From assembly GCF_045679555.1 (NCBI RefSeq), contig NC_092122.1, positions 16,469,565 through 16,533,564 on the forward strand: a DNA stretch of 64,000 nucleotides, read 5' to 3'. Every line of letters begins with the position of its first letter. Position 1 is the stretch's first letter. A program made the position numbers and the translations under genes. This DNA comes from Salvelinus alpinus (lineage: Eukaryota; Chordata; Actinopteri; Salmoniformes; Salmonidae). Below are positions 3,488 through 43,900 of the stretch, piece after piece. Below the pieces are notes generated by a model that saw only the letters and a program-made list of their open reading frames with translations, made no database searches and was not told the origin of the DNA.

Positions 3488-3625
3488 ACCAAGAACCTCC
3501 TCATCATTCTTGATCCTGTGCTTTCAGCACAGCACCAAGAACCTCCTCATCATTCTTGATCCTGTGCTTTCAGCACAGCACCAAGAACCTCCTCATCATT
3601 CTTGATCCTGTGCTTTCAGCACAGC
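3488..3625. repeat. 46-bp tandem repeat, 3 copies
   Basis: ACCAAGAACCTCC recurs at 3488, 3534 and 3580, giving an exact 46-bp period. Each unit contains TGTGCTTTCAGCACA, a 6-bp stem with a 3-nt loop. The array lies 63 bp past the stk38l stop codon, in its predicted 3' UTR, so the transcript would carry three successive small hairpins. Confidence 0.9.
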
Positions 3626-3687
3626 AGGGGTTTACCGCCCAACCCTGTGTCCACATTGTCTCTCCCATTTTCCCTCATGCCCTCATC

Positions 3688-20890: not shown

Positions 20891-23800
20891 TTAAAGGAGG
20901 AGGGGTGTGCGCTCGCCAGCGGACTCTCTCCTGCCAGTCAGCTGTCGGGCACGGGCGAGGAGACGGGAAGGGAGTGAGGACGTGTGGTGGCTTGGGTCGA
21001 GAACATTGGTCTTGCGGCGCTCCCGCTCTTGCAGCCACATGAGGTAAGGGCCGGGGGGGAAGAAGGGCCGTGTGCGTTCCCGGTAGAGCTGTAGCACGAT
21101 ACCAGACACACCCAGAACCACCCACACTGTGATCATGATGAAATCTGGAATACCAAGAGGACAAAAATATGTTAGGTTGAAAGGTCAAAATCAGGTGCCC
21201 AACATAAGTCCTGCCTGCAGGTTAAATAAAAAAATAACTCTGAAGTGATTTTACTCACCAATGTCCTGGAAAGGCACATCAGTAAAGGCCTTGCTAAAGT
21301 TGTCGTTGAGGAAGCGTTTGAGAATGTTAAGAGTGATGTAGGATAGGCTGGTATAGATGTAAGCATTCACAGTCAGCACCACAGCATAGGCTCCAGCTAC
21401 ACCACACGTAGTGATGTTACCCTGCAGACAGATAACACCCACACAGCAATATTACCCAGAGGCTCCATTTCCACATTTGTCCTCCCAAATCTTTGAAAGT
21501 TCTAAGCCCTTCTTGAGTTTAAAGTGGGAGGGGACTATGGCGTTGAATTGGACAGCCACTGTAAGGAAAGTGCAGAAGGGCAGGGATCAGGGCCTACCTC
21601 TCTTGGCCAGCGGACAAAGAAGAGCGGTACCACCACCACGATGCAGCTGAACGTCACCCAGAACACCACATTCGAACGGAACACCTGTATGTCACCTGAG
21701 GAAGTGATGAGAATTTTTTTACAACGTTGTTACAATACTTCCTGTGTCATACAACATTCATCTGATTGAGCATTATCCTGCTTGAACTAGTAAATCAAAT
21801 AAATTATAATCTGATGTAGGTATTTTTTGGTTCTTTTACCGACAGGCGTGAAAAAGACAATGGAGGAGATGAGGAACCCCAGCATGAGACCGACGACGAC
21901 GACACAGGACATAACTGAGCCGAAGCGCCACCAGCTCATCACCAGGATAACTCCCCCAACTACGCCAATCACTGCTGTCAGGGTCAGGCGGACTGCAGGG
22001 AGGAAACACAGACACTGCTGTCAGGGTCAGGCGGACTGCAGGGAGGAAACACAGACACTGCTGTCAGGGTCAGGCGGACTGCAGGGAGGAAACACAGACA
22101 CTTCTGTCAGGGTCAGACGGACTGCAGGGAGGAAACACAGACACTTCTGTCAGGGTCAGACGGAGAGGGAGTTGGACAAATATCTTTATTTTTCATAGAG
22201 CCATAGAAGAATGATAACCTGAGCTTCTGGCAGGGGGTCCAACTCAGACTGACCCCAAATAAATGAAAGCAAGTCCAGGAATTTCTCCATCAATTCTAAA
22301 CTCAACTGCTCTACAGATAGATTAACATTCTTTAAATTGTCTTTACACTAAACCATGTGCTCTTCAGCATGATGGAACCCGTGCGCCAACTTAATTACTG
22401 GAACGTGCTTTTACAGTGAGATGTTTGTTCTATGCAGAAATGTGTTGTTTCAAACTGAACTGTGTGTTGTGCACTGGGGAAGTTTCCCATTGCATCCTGG
22501 ATGAGTTCTGACATCCATCCATCAGCTCCACCATTGACCAAATCACATTAGGGTTCGAGTGTGTAATTCTGAATTCATACGCTCACCGCCATCCTCTATG
22601 ACTAACACATACAGTGAGGGAAAAAAGTATTTGATCCCCTGCTGATTTTGTACGTTTGCCCACTGACAAAGAAATTATTAGTCTATAATTTTAATGGTAG
22701 GTTTATTTGAACAGTGAGAGACAGAATAACAACAAAAAAATCTTTAAAATGTTATAAATTGATTTGCATTTTAATGAGGGAAATAAGTATTTGATCCCCT
22801 CTCAATCAGAAATATTTCTGGCTCCCAGGTGTCTTTTATACAGGTAACGAGCTGAGATTAGGAGCACACTCTTAAAGGGAGTGCTCCTAATCTCAGTTTG
22901 TTACCTGTATAAAAAGACACCTGTCCACAGAAGCAATCAATCAGATTCCAAACTCTCCACCATGGCCAAGACCAAAGAGATCTCCAAGGATGTCAGGGAC
23001 AAGATTGTAGACCTACACCAGGCTGGAATGGGCTACAAGACCATCGCCAAGCAGCTTGGTGAGAAGGTGACAACAGTTGGTGCGATTATTCGCAAATGGA
23101 AGAAACACAAAAGAACTGTCAATCTCCCTCGGCCTGGGGCTCCATGCAAGATCTCACCTCGTGGAGTTGCAATGATCATGAGAACGGTGAGGAATCAGCC
23201 CAGAACTATAGGGGAGGATCTTGTCAATGATCTCAAGGCAGCTAGGACCATAGTCACCAAGAAAACAATTGGTAACACACTACACCGTAAAGGACTGAAA
23301 TCCTGCAGCGCCCGCAAGGTCCCCCTGCTCAAGAAAGCACATATACATGCCCGTCTGAAGTTTGAATCATTCAGATGTTCATTGGCAGAGGACAACTGGG
23401 TGAAAGTGTTGTGGTCAGATGAGACCAAAATGGAGCTCTTTGGCATCAACTCAACTCACCGTGTTTGGAGGAGGAGGAATGCTGCCTATGACCAAGAACA
23501 CCATCCCCACCGTCAAACATGGAGTTGGAAACATTATGCTTTGGGGGTGTTTTTCTGCTAAGGGGACAGGACAACTTCACCGCATCAAAGGGACAATGTA
23601 CGGGGCCATGTACCGTCAAATCTTGGGTGAGAACCTCCTTCCCTCAGCCAGGGCATTGAAAATGGGTCGTGGATGGGTATTTCAGCATGACAATGACCCA
23701 AAACACACAGCCAAGGCAACAAATGAGTGGCTCAAGAAGAAGCACATTAAGGTCCTGGAGTGGCCTAGCCAGTCTCCAGACCTTAATCCCATAGAAAATC

Positions 23801-26800
23801 TGTGGAGGGAGCTGAAGGTTCGAGTTGCCAAACGTCAGCCTCGAAACCTTAATGACTTGGAGAAGATCTGCAGAGGAGTGGGACAAAATCCCTCCTGAGA
23901 TGTGTGCAAACCTGGTGGCCAACTACAAGAAACGTCTGACCTCTGATTGCCAACAAGGGTTTTGCCACCAAGTACTAAGTCATGTTTTGCAGAGGGGTCA
24001 AATACTTATTTCCCTCATTAAAATGCAAATCAATTTATAACATTTTTGACATGCGTTTTTCTGTTGTTATTCTGTCTCTCACTGTTCAAATAAACCTACC
24101 ATTAAAATTATAGACTGATCATTTCTTTGTCAGTGGGCAAATGTACAAAATCAGCAGGGGATCAAATACTTTCCCCCCCCTCATTGTACAAGCCAACACT
24201 GACATCACCTTGCATATGGGGAGCACGAACACCAATGCAAGCCATTCTAGGTTTCTCCAAATCAACATACACAAACTGTAAGATAAGCATAAAATGCATA
24301 CGTGACATATTTTGTTAGGCCTTTTAGATGGCATGTGGGGCACATGTCCCATATCATCACTTATCTCCATACTGTAACAACTGTACTGATTTAGCACTGG
24401 CTAATCTGATTGCATTTCCCAGTTAATGAGACCAACAGGAGTTTCTTTCACCTGAGCTGACCTGATTGAATCACAGAAAAACTCTATGCTTTCAGGTGGC
24501 ACTGACTGGAGCTTCCAAATGAAAATAGGATAATTGGGGGGGGGGGGGATCATATTCATATGGCATGACTATCTAATTTGCATTTATGAGTGACCTGTGA
24601 CAATTAATGCAATTTGTCTGGCCACGAAGACAGTTTGTATGGCTAATTTCATTCCAAAATACTGTATGCTTTGGAGACTAATTAAAAACTACAGCGGTAG
24701 TACAGAGAGAACTGAGCAAGCATATGACCAAATAAACTGAAGCCAATGTTTACTATAGAAAAAACTACATAATTAATATCCTTATCAACCTGGCTGACAA
24801 GGTCAACAATCTTCTTATGTTCATTAGAAATCACTTAAACTTACTGTCATAGTCCAGTTTTGTAGTTCTTGTGATCAGGACAAAAAAAAGAAACGCTGCA
24901 AAGCCAAAGCCCATACAGAATAGCTCTAAGAGAGAGGAAGATAGAGAGGGGAACAAGGGAGGAAAGTTTCATACGGGAGAGCAACACAGTAAACACACAT
25001 TTTCTAGCATGACATCTAGGACTGGTTTCCCAGACCCAGATTAAACCTGCTACTGGACTAAAAACATGACCAGCGAAGAGTATTTATTATTTTTCTTTCA
25101 CATTGTTTTTGCATATTATGTGGGAGCAACAGTTTACAACAAGACCTTTAACCTCCAGCCCATATTTTCATTAGCTGGCTGGCATGAACTTTAAATGAGA
25201 GTTGGACTTTCACAAACCATAAATACAGCTAGTTGGGAGCGGCTATTTATTACTGGTGTTCTATAGGGAGGAAAAGCCCTCGACTTCCCAGACTTATCTT
25301 CCAGTGATGTAGTGGAAAACTTGGTAAGTCAACACTTGTTTCCCCCTACTCACCACATTTGAAGAAGCAGTGCCCAAAGAAGCACACGAAGAGGCCAGCT
25401 AAACCAGCGATGGTGAAGAAGATCCTTGTGGATATCTTCCCTAGAAGAAAAGAAAGTACATCAGCCTTTAGTCATTCTGTCTTTCCCCATAGTTGGTCTA
25501 ACTTGTTGTTGGTCTAACAAGAGCAGCAGACCCTGTGTCAACTGTTTGTCTTCTTTCTCCTGCTCTGAAATTGCTTATTGCTCCGTTACAGTTTGTTACT
25601 GTTGACGAGAGTTGACATCTGGGTTCATAAGTCAGTTGCTAATCAAAGTAGAAACTGAAATCAGCTGACAACATATTCCCAGGGGACTGGGGTTGATCTT
25701 CCCTGGTCTAAAATGCATGCTGTCCTTCAAGGTGCATTCCATAAGATTTCCACGGAAATAGCCCTCAAGGTCTCAGCCAGAACGATTGCAGTATAGTAAA
25801 TGTCTTCTGTGTAGAATGACATTATGCTCTCGTTCCACTCAACAACAAGTCTCATTGAAGGCCCCGGGAATTCAGACAGGAATACTCAGATATCTTTGGA
25901 AATGTCTCATTTATAGACATATATTGACTGACGTTTCCCTGCAAAAAGACCCTTTTGGCCCAGTGCTGGTTGTCCCACTTACCCAGAGTGTCACAGCCAT
26001 CCAGGGTGGAGGAGAAGCTGCAGGCGTAGGTGTGGACAGGGATATACGAGGAAGAGGTGTTAAGCACTGGGTCTCTGACTATGACAGAGTAGATAACACC
26101 CTGGCCCGGGATGGAGCTAAACACTACCTCTGTCTTATCATTGGATGATAGTGTCATGAGCTACAGGGAGGAGAAAAAAAGATAAAAGCTCACCATACCA
26201 TTACACCACAACCAGCAAGTTCACAGTCTACAATCACAATCTGTATTTTTATACATGTCCATTTTGCACTACATTCACACTTATCAACTCACCCTTTTCC
26301 CATGCTCTCTCATGGTCTGCACACTGGCCACACTCTGGATGCTGGTGATGAGGCTCTGCTCTGATAGGTCGCTCTCAGGCAGGAAGTACTGGTAGATGTC
26401 GTACCTCAGGCGGCAGCGAGTGTTTTCACCCACTTCAGTGTCACAGGCAGGCGGATTGGAGCCCCTGAAGAGGTGCCAACAGAGGTTAGTTCACAATGGA
26501 TTCTGAAAGTTTGCTTTAAAATATGAATGTGCATTTGGGGAAACAATGCCACTGTTCGCCCCAGTGCCTTTGTTATTGTTTTGTTGATGACAACAGAGAA
26601 GAGTCTGGCAGCGTGGTAAAATAAATTACACTGCATACTTGGCTGTTCTATCACTGCGTGTGCAGTGATGTCAGATGAGAAAAACAGTGGTTGTTTACAG
26701 TAACTTCGTTGTTGTTGTAATATCCGAAACGGACATGGCACTTTCACCTATTAAGGATTCTAGCTTTAAAACAGAAATTTTGATTTTTTTTTATAACAAT

Positions 26801-29800
26801 TTTTTCACATATATTTTTCACAATGAAATAAGATGGCTCAGAAGGGCTGTTACAAATAATAATAAACACAGCAATATGAAAATGCAACAGAAAGGGCCGT
26901 AGTCTCTTTCTTTAAAAAAAATATATAATTTAGAGACTACGCAAAAGAAGTGTTCCCATCACTTTTGTCTCATTCAACAACAACAAACCACCACAGACCA
27001 CCCCAGACCTCCCTGGTCTTTTGCTTTTCAAAATATCAGTTTATTTTTGTTCCAGGTAAATTTAGATACAGTTCAGTCTACAGACCACTGTAACATTTTA
27101 ACAGGAAGATTGTGGGTGTTTGTTTCCGCTCTGCAGTCTGCTTGGCCCTGACAGAAGTGCGTGTGTTTCCACTCTGCGGTCCGTGTAATACGAGCCAGCA
27201 CTTCCCATAGCCTGGTCAACAGATCTGTTTGGGCTGTCTTGCCAACTCTTATGATAATTTTCGCACCATAGCCAAATTAATAGTATTTACATAAGAAGAA
27301 AATATCAATGATTTCCCTATCCAAAAATTCTTTAGAGGTTGGGTTCCAATCACTGTACCTCACCACTTGTGGGTAAATCTATTTTCTCTACTAAAGCACA
27401 TTCCTAGCCAGAGCCCTGGCATTAAGAAATGTCTTACTCTGCTTCCACCACAACGAAAGCCACACAAATGTAGGACAGCACATAATGCACTCATAAGATT
27501 GCATTGTCTTTCAGTCACAGGACTATTTCTTTGGCTAATTGTTGGCTTTTCACCAGGGTTAACTTTAAAACATATAATCAAAAACATATGCAGAGTATGC
27601 CCTGCCTCACATTTGTTTGCAGTGAGACAGAAGTGGTTAAATCTAAGACGCTCATATATAAACCCTCTAATGTGTTGTTACCTTGAATATCCAATATTTG
27701 CAGGTGCAAAGTGGATAGTAGTCTCAAAAAGGTTGTAGTGGAGATAGACATTTGGGTCAATGTCCAGGTCAAACTCCAGATTACAAGCTCCAGGGACTGG
27801 GTCTGCAGAGAGAGAAAACACGTAATTAAAACCAGCCAATCAAAAGTCACTGTTTTTGTCTTGAGGTCCATTGACAGTGCAGTAGTAGACTGTTGAGAGT
27901 TTGTACCATTGGTCTATGCAGATGGCCTACTGGTGACTGTGGAGAAGTTGTAGAGTGCAGATTACTCTACACAGATACAATCAGTTTGGTGGATGGCAAA
28001 ACAGCTTTGAAATTTGTCCTCAGTCGACGATTAGTTTTGTTCAATAATCCAACTGACATTCTTTGTTTTGGGGTTTGTTTGAAACAGGTTCCACATCTAC
28101 TAGATACTCTTGCTATTGTTTTGACATGGTATATTGAGTGGTTAAAACAATGGTGGATTGAGGGTGAGTAGTGAGAGGTAAAATATCCTGGAATGCTAAC
28201 AGTGATGTAAAGTAACATACTGTAGCCCCTTGACAGATAGTGGGAGGCCACCTAAAACTGTAGAGGAATTGGTGGATTATTTTGGGAAGCGGAGATGGAA
28301 GGGCATACATACCAGAGCTGGTGTAGGGGAGGATGACCCCAGTGCCGGCCACAGAGTCCCCATCAGGGGCCAGCAGGAACCAGGAGAGCTTGGTCTGACC
28401 GGGGATCAGGGGTGAGAGAAGGCCTGAGTCCACCGCTGTTAGAGAGAGGCCCAGCCCTGGCATCTGCCCAAAGTAGTCAACCAGACAACCAGAAAATCAC
28501 TCAAATAGTCAGTCAACAACACAGCCCTAATCTATCCAAATCAGTCACCAAATTACTGCTTTATTCAGTCCTGTAATGTAAAGTACTACTGAAATGTGCA
28601 CAGATACCCAGCTGACCACCTCTTCTCACCTAGCTGTAGGCTATACCTGCCAGATGGTTTTGACAGTGGAGAAAGAATGACTTGTAGTGATATTCACTTC
28701 CAGATGACACTCATTAACTGTCTATGCTGTGTTTGGTACATTTTCCCCTTAACAGTTGGGGACTGTTTTCATTGTTGACTTCACTACAGTCAGAGCATGT
28801 TAACTGCTTTAGCCTATTCTCACCATTAGTTAGGACTACTTTGAGTTAGGACTACTTTGAGTTAGGACTACTTTGAGTTAGGACTACTTTGAGTTAGGAC
28901 TACTTTGAGTTAGGACTACTTTGAGTTAGGACTACTTTGAGTTAGGACTACTTTGAGTTAGGACTACTTTGAGTTAGGACTACTTTGAGTTAGTTCAAAG
29001 CGTTTTCAGTAGTAAGAGGGAAAGGCGTTCAAAGTTTTCCGTCAGCACCAAAGAGCTTGTGACCAGCCTAACACATGACCACAGCTCTACTCAGTCAGAG
29101 TGTCTGCAAATCTCACAAGACTCTGTCGCAAGTGGGTCACTAGAAACGGTGTGTGTGATAGGGTGATTGGCGACTGTTTCTTCACCCAACCCTAAGGATC
29201 TCTGGGACCAAGGCCAGGATTGGTCAACCCATCTTACCCTTGCCTCATGCCCCGTCTTCCTCCCATGATGAGCAACCAGTCTGGTTCCACATCATCTGAC
29301 TTCCCTCCACAAGTCAGTGGACCAATCAGTGCCAATCGTGTGTGTTTGTTCGTACATGTTTGATAGGGTAATAGGTCATATTGAATGAATGAACACTGAC
29401 CTGAATTAGACTATTACAAAAATCTATTTTACTGTGAGCATGTGTGTTTGTGCGTGAGCCAGTGTCTTACCCTGGTGTAGGACAGCGTAGCATTGCTGTG
29501 CTGTGTGTGGAACTGGAGGGTGATAAAGGACACTTCAGGGGGGATTCTGGAGACCACTGCCTGCACTGTCTCGTTCTCATTCACATTCACATTCTGAAAG
29601 GTGTTGAACAGGAAAACCACCCGATCTGAGAGAGGAAATATATGTTACAGCATTATCATCCCAGGCTATCCACAACCTGTTACTAGGGTCATTTATATAC
29701 AGTGGGTTTCCGAAATTATTGACACTGTTGATAAAGATGAGCCAAAATGACTGTATAAATTAAGAAATTCAAATACTGAGCTACAGTATATTCTATACTC

Positions 29801-40907: not shown

Positions 40908-43900
40908 TTACGTCTTCTGATGCCTTCTACCGTTCATTTCAAAATAAGGGTCCTCATTTTTGTTCTTGAGTTGGGTCTTCTTTGTGAGAGCAGTGTTCTT
41001 TTGGGAGGGGAGGGCTTTGATGTTGGGGCTGGTTTTTTGGGGGGCCGTTTTGGTGGGCTCCGGTTTGAGAAAGGAGGTGTTGGTGGTAGGCGCTTGCCTC
41101 CGTCCTGCCCTCTGTGCAGTTGGTACCGTTCTCTGGTTGGTCTTGCCAACAGCGGAAGAGCCACTAGGGGCCCCTGGTACCCGCCCAGGGGTGCCACCAC
41201 GTGGAGGCACAACCACTTTGGGGATGGCCCTGGTTTGGGCCTGGCTTTTGGCTGTGGTGTCTTTGCTCTTGGGGAGCGAGATGGTGGATTTGGGCAGGAC
41301 TGTTGTGGCAGTCCTGGAGGTAGGGGTTAGTGCCCTGGTGGGTTGGGCCGTTGTAGGCCTGGGTGTTGGCACAGTCACCCGGGGGGTTGGACGGACCCGT
41401 CTTGCAACATCCAGATGAAGGCGTGAGGCCGGGGAGGCGGGCCGCCTCTGAGACAGGTGGCGTTGGGTGGCGCCGGTTGGGGGTCGGCCCTCTTTCTGGA
41501 AGGGGACCCTCGATGGGGCTGTGGCGGGGCGAAGCACTGTGATGGAGGTGTGGGTGGATGGAATGGAGGGTTTAGGACATTTACAGGAGGGCTCGGGGCA
41601 CACAGGGCTACGGGGCTGAGAGAGGGCGCCGCGAGGGGACGGCCTGAGCTTCAGCTTGGGGGCAGAAGAGTAATGGAGCAGTGGTGCCGTCTGCTGGCTT
41701 GGGCCCTGCTGCGAAGACAGGGTGGGTGACACAGTAGCCACCTTCTTGGGGATTGGCAAGGGCTTCTGAGTGGGCTTCTTGGGGGAGGGAAGGGGCATCT
41801 GCAGGATCTTTTTGGGTGCTGCGGCTGCTTTCCTGGGCAGAGTAGGGGTCGAGACGGGGGTGCAGGTGGCTTTGGAGGCCGAACCAGAGGAAGACGAGGA
41901 GGAAGACGAGGGGATAAGGTTGACTGCAGCAAGAGGGTCCATGTCAGGTGGAGGGGCCGCTGCTGCAGAGCCGTGGCCCGGTGGCCCCTTCTGGTATGCC
42001 AGGATCTTCTGCTCCAGAGTGGTGAACTGGAGCACCCGGCCAGGGTCGTACTTGAGCAGGAAACCCCTTAGGGTGTCCCAACCACCCCCCACACGCACCA
42101 TCACATGCTTCCCATGCAGCATCTACCACAGTGAGAGAGGGAGAGACAGGGATAAATGTGAGACATTTCAGTTGTCTCTTTAAAGTTAACAGTGAAGTGG
42201 TGACGCAGGGTACCATGCTAAAGGAAAAATGACCTCTAAGTCCCGCAGTGTAAGCTCACAGCTTTTAAAGGAGGAACCAGTATACCACCACTACTAACCG
42301 CTCACTACTCACTCCTACTACCACCAACTAATATCTACGGTGCTGCCAACTACTATCTACAGCTACCATCTATTTTTTCAGCTGCTGTTTGATGGAAGTG
42401 CTAACGCTGGCCAATATAATGTAATCCCTCCTGTAGGTCCAGTACTAATGAGATCCACTCTGCTTCCCTAATGAGTTTAGGGAGTGATCTGCTGCTGTGT
42501 GGAACCATGAGCAACTGAGACAGACGTTTCCTGCTTCCTTTACCCTACACCTCTGCTTTTTATACTTAGCACGGCCTTTTACTTTCCAGTTGTATCACCA
42601 TTTTATCAGCCTTAAATAGCCAACATCGGTACTAAGCTTACTTGACTTCCAAAATGCTTTGTCTCAAGTCTACAGACCTATCTAGTCTATATAGTAGGTT
42701 GGTCTCAAGTCTACAAGACTATCTGGTCTATATAGTAGGTTGGTCTCAAGTCTCCAAGACTATCTGGTCTATATAGTAGGTTGGTCTCAAGTCTCCAAGA
42801 CTATCTGGTCTATATAGGTTGGTCTCAAGTCTCCAAGACTATCTGGTCTATAGTATGTGAAGGTCTAAAAGGACCAGACGACAGGTACTGACCATAGAAT
42901 TACATCAAGTGTAGTAATTTAATTTCTACAGTGCTGACACAGCCAAACTTGTGCCAGGCACTGAGACTGAACCTTTGGATTAGTGGCCAGGTAATGAATG
43001 AGGTTACGGTGGAGAGATGTTTCCTGGTCTCTTGGCAGAGGACAGAAAGGGTGTGTCACTAGCTACAGGTCTAATGCTCACTTAGCAATGGAATTGACTC
43101 CAACACTGGTGTTCAATGCTTGGGAGTGTTCAGTGTGTCACTATACAGTGTGTGCTGCTCACCCGGATGAAGAGGGTCTTGTCTCCCAGTCTATAACGGC
43201 CCTCTGACAGGTATTCAATAGATACTCTCTGGGAGCAGTTACACGGCGGCTCGTCCATCAGATGTTGCTCCTGTAACACAGAGGGAGAATTAACATGGGC
43301 CTATAGAGTCCTGGCTAAGGAAGCAAGAACATGGGAAAGACACTTTCTAAAACATTGAGAAACCCTGTTTCATTAACCCATCGCCTAAGGATAAAGTAGA
43401 GTTGCTAACAGGAAAACGCAATGAACTGATGAACTCAAATGAACCAATTTTAAGTTGCAAAGACTTGAAAGGCTATAGAACAGCATTCAGTAGCAGCCTC
43501 TGAATACTGTAGTTGAAGAGGACCGCTTTGGCAAAGACACTAATCATCAAAGGCTAAGTGTCATGCAGCTTAGGCTGTGGACACAGGAAGTGTTCTGATG
43601 TTTGTTGATGTTGTGACTGAGCTGCATTGGTGCCACAGGCTAGAGTCACATGACCCCAGATGGATGGAGCATCACGAGGACCATAATGACTCATACAGCC
43701 CTGAGCAGTGAGGCAACTAGAGCCACCGCTGCCGCCATTTTGGATCTGATGAACTGGGTCACTAACTATTTTAATAGAACAACAAGAGAGATGAGAGGAG
43801 AGGAAAGTGGAGAGTCGAGTCCCTATTTAGTCAGTAGAAATTTGACATTAGCACAGTTTTAACTCCTGGAGTGACTTGCCCCAGGCTGGTAGAGGCCCCC

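Follow-up and report, generated by a model that had tools for sequence, protein, structure and literature searches.

Four tandem copies of the exon 9 acceptor in a tm7sf3-like gene of Salvelinus alpinus and in its second gene copy

How is a 3' splice site chosen when the same site is offered four times in a row? The question is raised by a gene on the minus strand of a 64,000-nucleotide stretch of Salvelinus alpinus DNA (the window; contig NC_092122.1, positions 16,469,565 to 16,533,564), which we regard as tm7sf3-like and in which a minisatellite lies across the boundary between intron 8 and exon 9. Four near-identical complete acceptors allow a direct test of acceptor choice where the local sequence leaves it undecided, and wrong choices, which alter the frame or the length, can be counted in junction reads. 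Two gene copies in the genome carry the same array with different frame consequences and so form a built-in comparison.

Using Tandem Repeats Finder (TRF) on the window, we detected an array with a period of 43 bp, 4.5 copies and 98% matches at 21970-22164. Its score of 362 compares with a best of 62 in 30 simulated windows (order-1 Markov). Read on the minus strand, the array contains CTGCAG four times and comprises four complete 43-bp units (22164-21993), each made of 20 nt of intron end and 23 nt of exon start. These are unit 1 (22122..22164), unit 2 (22079..22121), unit 3 (22036..22078) and unit 4 (21993..22035), and the bases next to their CTGCAG motifs are 22121, 22078, 22035 and 21992, respectively. 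Exon 9 (21840..21992, minus strand; 153 nt) adds the first 23 nt of the units once more (21992-21970); it is delimited by its open frame, by GT/AG boundaries and by a boundary that the second gene copy shares. Unit 1 is identical with unit 2 and unit 3 with unit 4, and two sites differ between the pairs: units 1 and 2 begin TCCGTCTGACCCTGACAGAAGTG, units 3 and 4 begin TCCGCCTGACCCTGACAGCAGTG, and the start of exon 9 is of this second type. A pyrimidine tract and CTGCAG close each of the four. An earlier note on this DNA had described four such units, with pyrimidine tract, CTGCAG and the first bases of exon 9, as a minisatellite through which the 3' splice site of tm7sf3 exon 9 had become multiplied. 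The protein matches PF13886 (TM7S3_TM198; 136.6 bits, E = 1.1e-39, cut-off 29.2). TRF and the minus-strand reading agree on the units, and the array spans the boundary, so that the observation is confirmed. The acceptor at 21992 was also placed correctly, whereas the limits then given for the array (21971..22165) are off by one base. All array data are genomic sequence of one haplotype.

Each unit contains the branch-point motifs CTGACCCTGAC, which are supplied by exon codons. At every acceptor, CTGAC motifs stand at -35 and -29, AGs stand at -27 and -24 with no further AG until -2, and 14 of 17 positions are pyrimidines. At least 24 nt upstream are identical for all four acceptors, and 67 nt for the real site and the nearest upstream copy (decoy). 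Each unit would thereby form a full 3' splice-site module of branch-point motifs, pyrimidine tract and CTGCAG. AGs less than 12-15 nt from a branch point may be bypassed, according to the excerpted account in PMC1431707, and the AGs at -27 and -24 are near enough to the CTGAC motifs to be bypassable under this rule. If they are bypassed, a branch point within a unit would lead, by AG scanning, to that unit's own AG, and the choice of acceptor would probably be settled when the branch point is selected.

What would the upstream acceptors yield? The frame is open from 21992 only, which bears out the view that the lowest copy is the real junction, and productive mRNA would use this acceptor. Use of unit 3 would add 43 nt and shift the frame, with a stop where exon 10 begins, 260 nt ahead of the last junction; units 2 and 1 would add 86 and 129 nt, and a TGA is met 408 and 451 nt ahead of that junction. 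All three upstream acceptors thus give premature stops, 260-451 nt ahead of the last junction. It had been claimed that only the 129-nt addition keeps the frame. This is right as arithmetic, but the product is truncated by an in-frame TGA within the insert, and the one frame-keeping upstream product expected for this gene disappears. By the usual rule, all three premature stops make candidates for nonsense-mediated decay; upstream acceptor use would give a truncated protein and probably lead to such decay. Skipping of exon 9 would leave the frame intact.

Searching the 2.37 Gb assembly of the same genome with the unit core, we found four occurrences in the window and four on another contig (C11), where a second tm7sf3 lies in the region 29243000-29258500 (exons 2-12 at 29245383-29252868; 536 codons open). 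The two gene copies differ at 35 of 1612 bases of the coding stretch and, with the stop counted in, at 12 of 537 positions of the translation, and their downstream flanks are colinear (88% over 5.1 kb). In global alignments, eight of the ten introns are 92.0-97.0% identical, while intron 4 reaches 88.4% and intron 8, which has an insertion here, 81.8%. This 1575-bp insertion (22612-24186), between exon 8 and the array, is missing from the second gene copy and therefore arrived after the gene duplication; going by its reading frames, we take it to be Tc1-like.

The array on C11 has four units of 43, 43, 43 and 44 nt, with the left edge and the exon boundary as in the window, and all four end in CTGCAG with their acceptors intact. 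Its units all have exon halves of the first type, whereas its exon itself starts with the second, as that of the window gene does. Its decoys would add 44, 87 or 130 nt. The first and the last of these additions run into a stop, and the middle one, with 29 extra residues, stays in frame and open; it is the 44-nt unit that makes the +87 decoy frame-keeping and open. The two genes have equal unit numbers and different frame consequences, and one of them at least has seen a turnover of unit content. Since the array has four units in both and its left edge coincides, it should be older than the gene duplication, barring conversion between the copies. Minisatellites are described as a rule as unconserved beyond close relatives (PMC3039753, in excerpt), and the four units retained in both copies suggest that such arrays can survive a gene duplication.

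An inverted and diverged copy of the array, of about 1.6 units, lies in intron 4 of the window gene (27116..27184, plus strand; 55 of 68 positions, gap-free). The match passes a unit boundary in register, and at E 0.01 introns 4 and 8 have no other inverted match to each other. A fixed 68-nt query had 52 matching positions there, whereas 100 simulated windows reached 38 at most. The copy is also present in the second gene (94.2% over 69). Its distance to the array is about 0.22 substitutions per site, compared with about 0.05 for the 5% intron difference, which places the copying, from an array that already had two units or more, well before the gene duplication; the exceptions would be unusually fast evolution on one side or conversion between the genes.

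Taking these results together, we consider it likely that this is a minisatellite of the 'mirage' type known from amphioxus: the exon 9 acceptor (20 nt of intron end and 23 nt of exon start) would have been copied in tandem before the gene duplication, exchange among units would keep them alike, and the array would most likely be a tolerated, near-neutral burden. We favour tolerance because of the amphioxus precedent. There, mirage minisatellites are reported from the globins BflGb6 and BflGb9, Adh3 and TnC, with similar repeats in PGBD5; their units are homogenised and regular splicing is reported as undisturbed (PMC3087553, PMC3902484), and the available text states for Adh and TnC that no aberrant mRNAs are generated (PMC3902484). 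The tm7sf3 array has this mirage anatomy. It likewise spans an exon-intron boundary with the intron end and the exon edge in its units, keeps the splice signals (4/4 units here and 4/4 in the second gene copy) and has homogenised units (the pairs described above in the window gene, one exon-half type in the second copy). Unlike the amphioxus units, which measure 150-160, 157 and 10-72 bp in the accounts cited, those of tm7sf3 measure 43 bp and lie in a teleost gene. Length instability is reported in amphioxus, where two haplotypes of BflGb6 carry 6 and 3 units, whereas for tm7sf3 a single haplotype has four units in both genes. The tm7sf3 array also differs from the mirages in being common to two gene copies.

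Other systems resemble it in part. In rainbow trout irak3, at intron 4 / exon 5, the 15-17 nt that open exon 5 stand four times directly upstream of it; this is another gene, and a full acceptor per repeat is not stated in the available portion of the report (PMC6763605). In intron 1 of sea bream MSTN-2, the 2R repeat allele adds a predicted acceptor that 1R is described as lacking (PMC3045353), but this predicted site is close to the intron's 5' end and is no copy of the real boundary. NAGNAG tandem acceptors are similar in that AGs compete for one exon (PMC3250501, as excerpted); they are spaced by 3 nt, whereas 43 nt separate the tm7sf3 acceptors, every one of which has a branch-point motif to itself. 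Arrays of this or a similar kind are already known, from amphioxus and trout irak3, and what is new is the tm7sf3 case and its persistence in both gene copies; the tm7sf3 array is not described in the titles or abstracts among the literature matches listed. Work by Zhuo from 2007, which PMC3087553 cites, reportedly derives some human introns from tandem arrays with splice sites, the repeats supplying both ends of the new intron. The tm7sf3 unit differs from these in having no good donor, judged by eye.

That the gene's own splice site seeded the array is the simplest reading, short of proof. At E 0.001, an 86-nt query of two units matched the genome at the two tm7sf3 genes only (four matches, two candidates; these counts may be lower bounds). 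Exact matches numbered 0 in genome_contigs and 0 in viral_contigs, collections that hold no fish genomes. Among the other acceptors of the gene (n = 9), none is preceded within 500 nt by a near match to the start of its exon (best 10/15). An eroded fifth acceptor in the 61-nt flank upstream of unit 1 was considered and rejected, the best local match being 6 nt, which 1458 of 2000 shuffles reached. The Pfam profile was also used to probe the exon start. Without the eight exon-start residues the score falls from 121.9 to 98.3 (cost 23.6 bits), whereas scrambling them gives 119.6 (cost 2.3 bits) and replacing them 115.8 (cost 6.1). When eight residues are deleted elsewhere, at six positions in turn, the scores are 96.2, 96.9, 107.3, 119.3, 102.2 and 111.7 (cost 2.6 to 25.7 bits). 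Because scrambling or replacing costs little and deletions elsewhere are comparable, we rejected this as proof that the exon-start residues are conserved.

Several points weigh against a tolerated array seeded by the gene itself. Judged by local sequence, the decoys appear no weaker than the real site, so that low decoy use is not predicted from the sequence. The direction of copying rests on the 86-nt search, which left out the 81% intron 4 copy and excludes close dispersed copies only, leaving room for diverged dispersed relatives. For the exon start, the Pfam test carries little weight and backs the spacing from the 21992 junction rather than the residues. Selection could be another reason for the persistence of four units in both gene copies, and the evidence is genomic sequence from one individual of one species.

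In a rival reading, the decoys would act as poison acceptors, their regulated use sending some of the mRNA to decay and the number of units tuning tm7sf3 output; the earlier note had likewise proposed that a probably polymorphic copy number could tune tm7sf3 splicing. Stops well before the last junction, which mark a poison acceptor, result from three of three decoys here and two of three in the second copy, with truncation of the protein, and the decoys are intact in both genes. Yet the +87 decoy of the second copy is in frame and open, and amphioxus mirages are reported, in the accounts cited, without disturbance of splicing (PMC3087553, PMC3902484). The intactness of the decoys also lies within neutral expectation. 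We detected no constraint on them, with one change in the six acceptor halves (three per gene, 120 sites) and 3.0 expected at 5% divergence; the probability of at most one change is 0.20 at 5% divergence and 0.05 at 8%. The change that falls outside these six halves sits in the real acceptor unit of the paralog. We therefore regard such a rheostat as unlikely. An insertion of a dispersed repeat at the exon boundary, its sequence becoming the exon start, could account for the related inverted sequence in intron 4, but the genome-wide matches at E 0.001 are confined to the two tm7sf3 genes and the Pfam profile runs through the exon start without a large gap, which makes this origin very unlikely.

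The intron 4 copy might also pair with the array as RNA and so mask decoys or favour a 518-nt circular RNA made of exons 5-8. It is retained in both genes, the predicted pairing is -95.4 kcal/mol here and -89.8 kcal/mol in the second gene copy, compared with a mean of -41.9 and a best of -77.0 in 225 overlapping intronic windows, and a human circTM7SF3 exists, its exons not stated in the available text (PMC7852086). However, about 5 kb lies between the arms, common descent accounts for the sharing, and the predicted strength is a consequence of the sequence relation and in itself shows no function; we find this role extremely improbable. An assembly artefact with a wrong number of units seems almost negligible: tandem arrays can be mis-assembled and the count comes from the assembly, but the array is short (195 bp), its units carry distinguishing differences and the second locus has an equal number. 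A scheme joining several of these ideas, in which an old mirage array, retained by both genes after the duplication, is a copy-number rheostat of unproductive splicing, intron 4 pairing alters which acceptors are open and a one-base change lets a decoy of the second copy yield a longer protein, is in our judgement highly doubtful. We retain the tolerated mirage-type array as the likely explanation.

The remaining exons and the surroundings agree with the assignment of the gene. Exon 8 (24845..24925, minus strand) has the donor GTAAGT. Exons 2-12, laid out on the minus strand, give 536 codons open ahead of the stop; the numbering supposes one exon upstream of 29623, and the layout starts at exon 2. 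Judging from its profile match, the gene is tm7sf3-like. PF13886 also takes in TMEM198, and the name leans further on neighbours and length. Among the neighbouring frames we found a SIKE match (E = 1.5e-12) and Med21 at 20.1 bits, under its cut-off of 37.3; FGFR1OP2 and MED21 are neighbours of human TM7SF3, which agrees with the frames seen here. The repeats in the window would suit a salmonid. Among the sequences of solved structures (177635 distinct), none was matched at E up to 1.

Other tandem repeats occur in the window. Three perfect 46-bp repeats at 3488-3626 were considered as a second mirage and rejected, since they sit just past the stop of a minus-strand frame, which we take to resemble the end of an STK38L-type kinase. 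Intron 2 of tm7sf3 contains a perfect 16-bp repeat of 10.4 copies (28828-28993), and a 41-bp tandem repeat of 4.8 copies (matches 94%) is present at 42661-42852.
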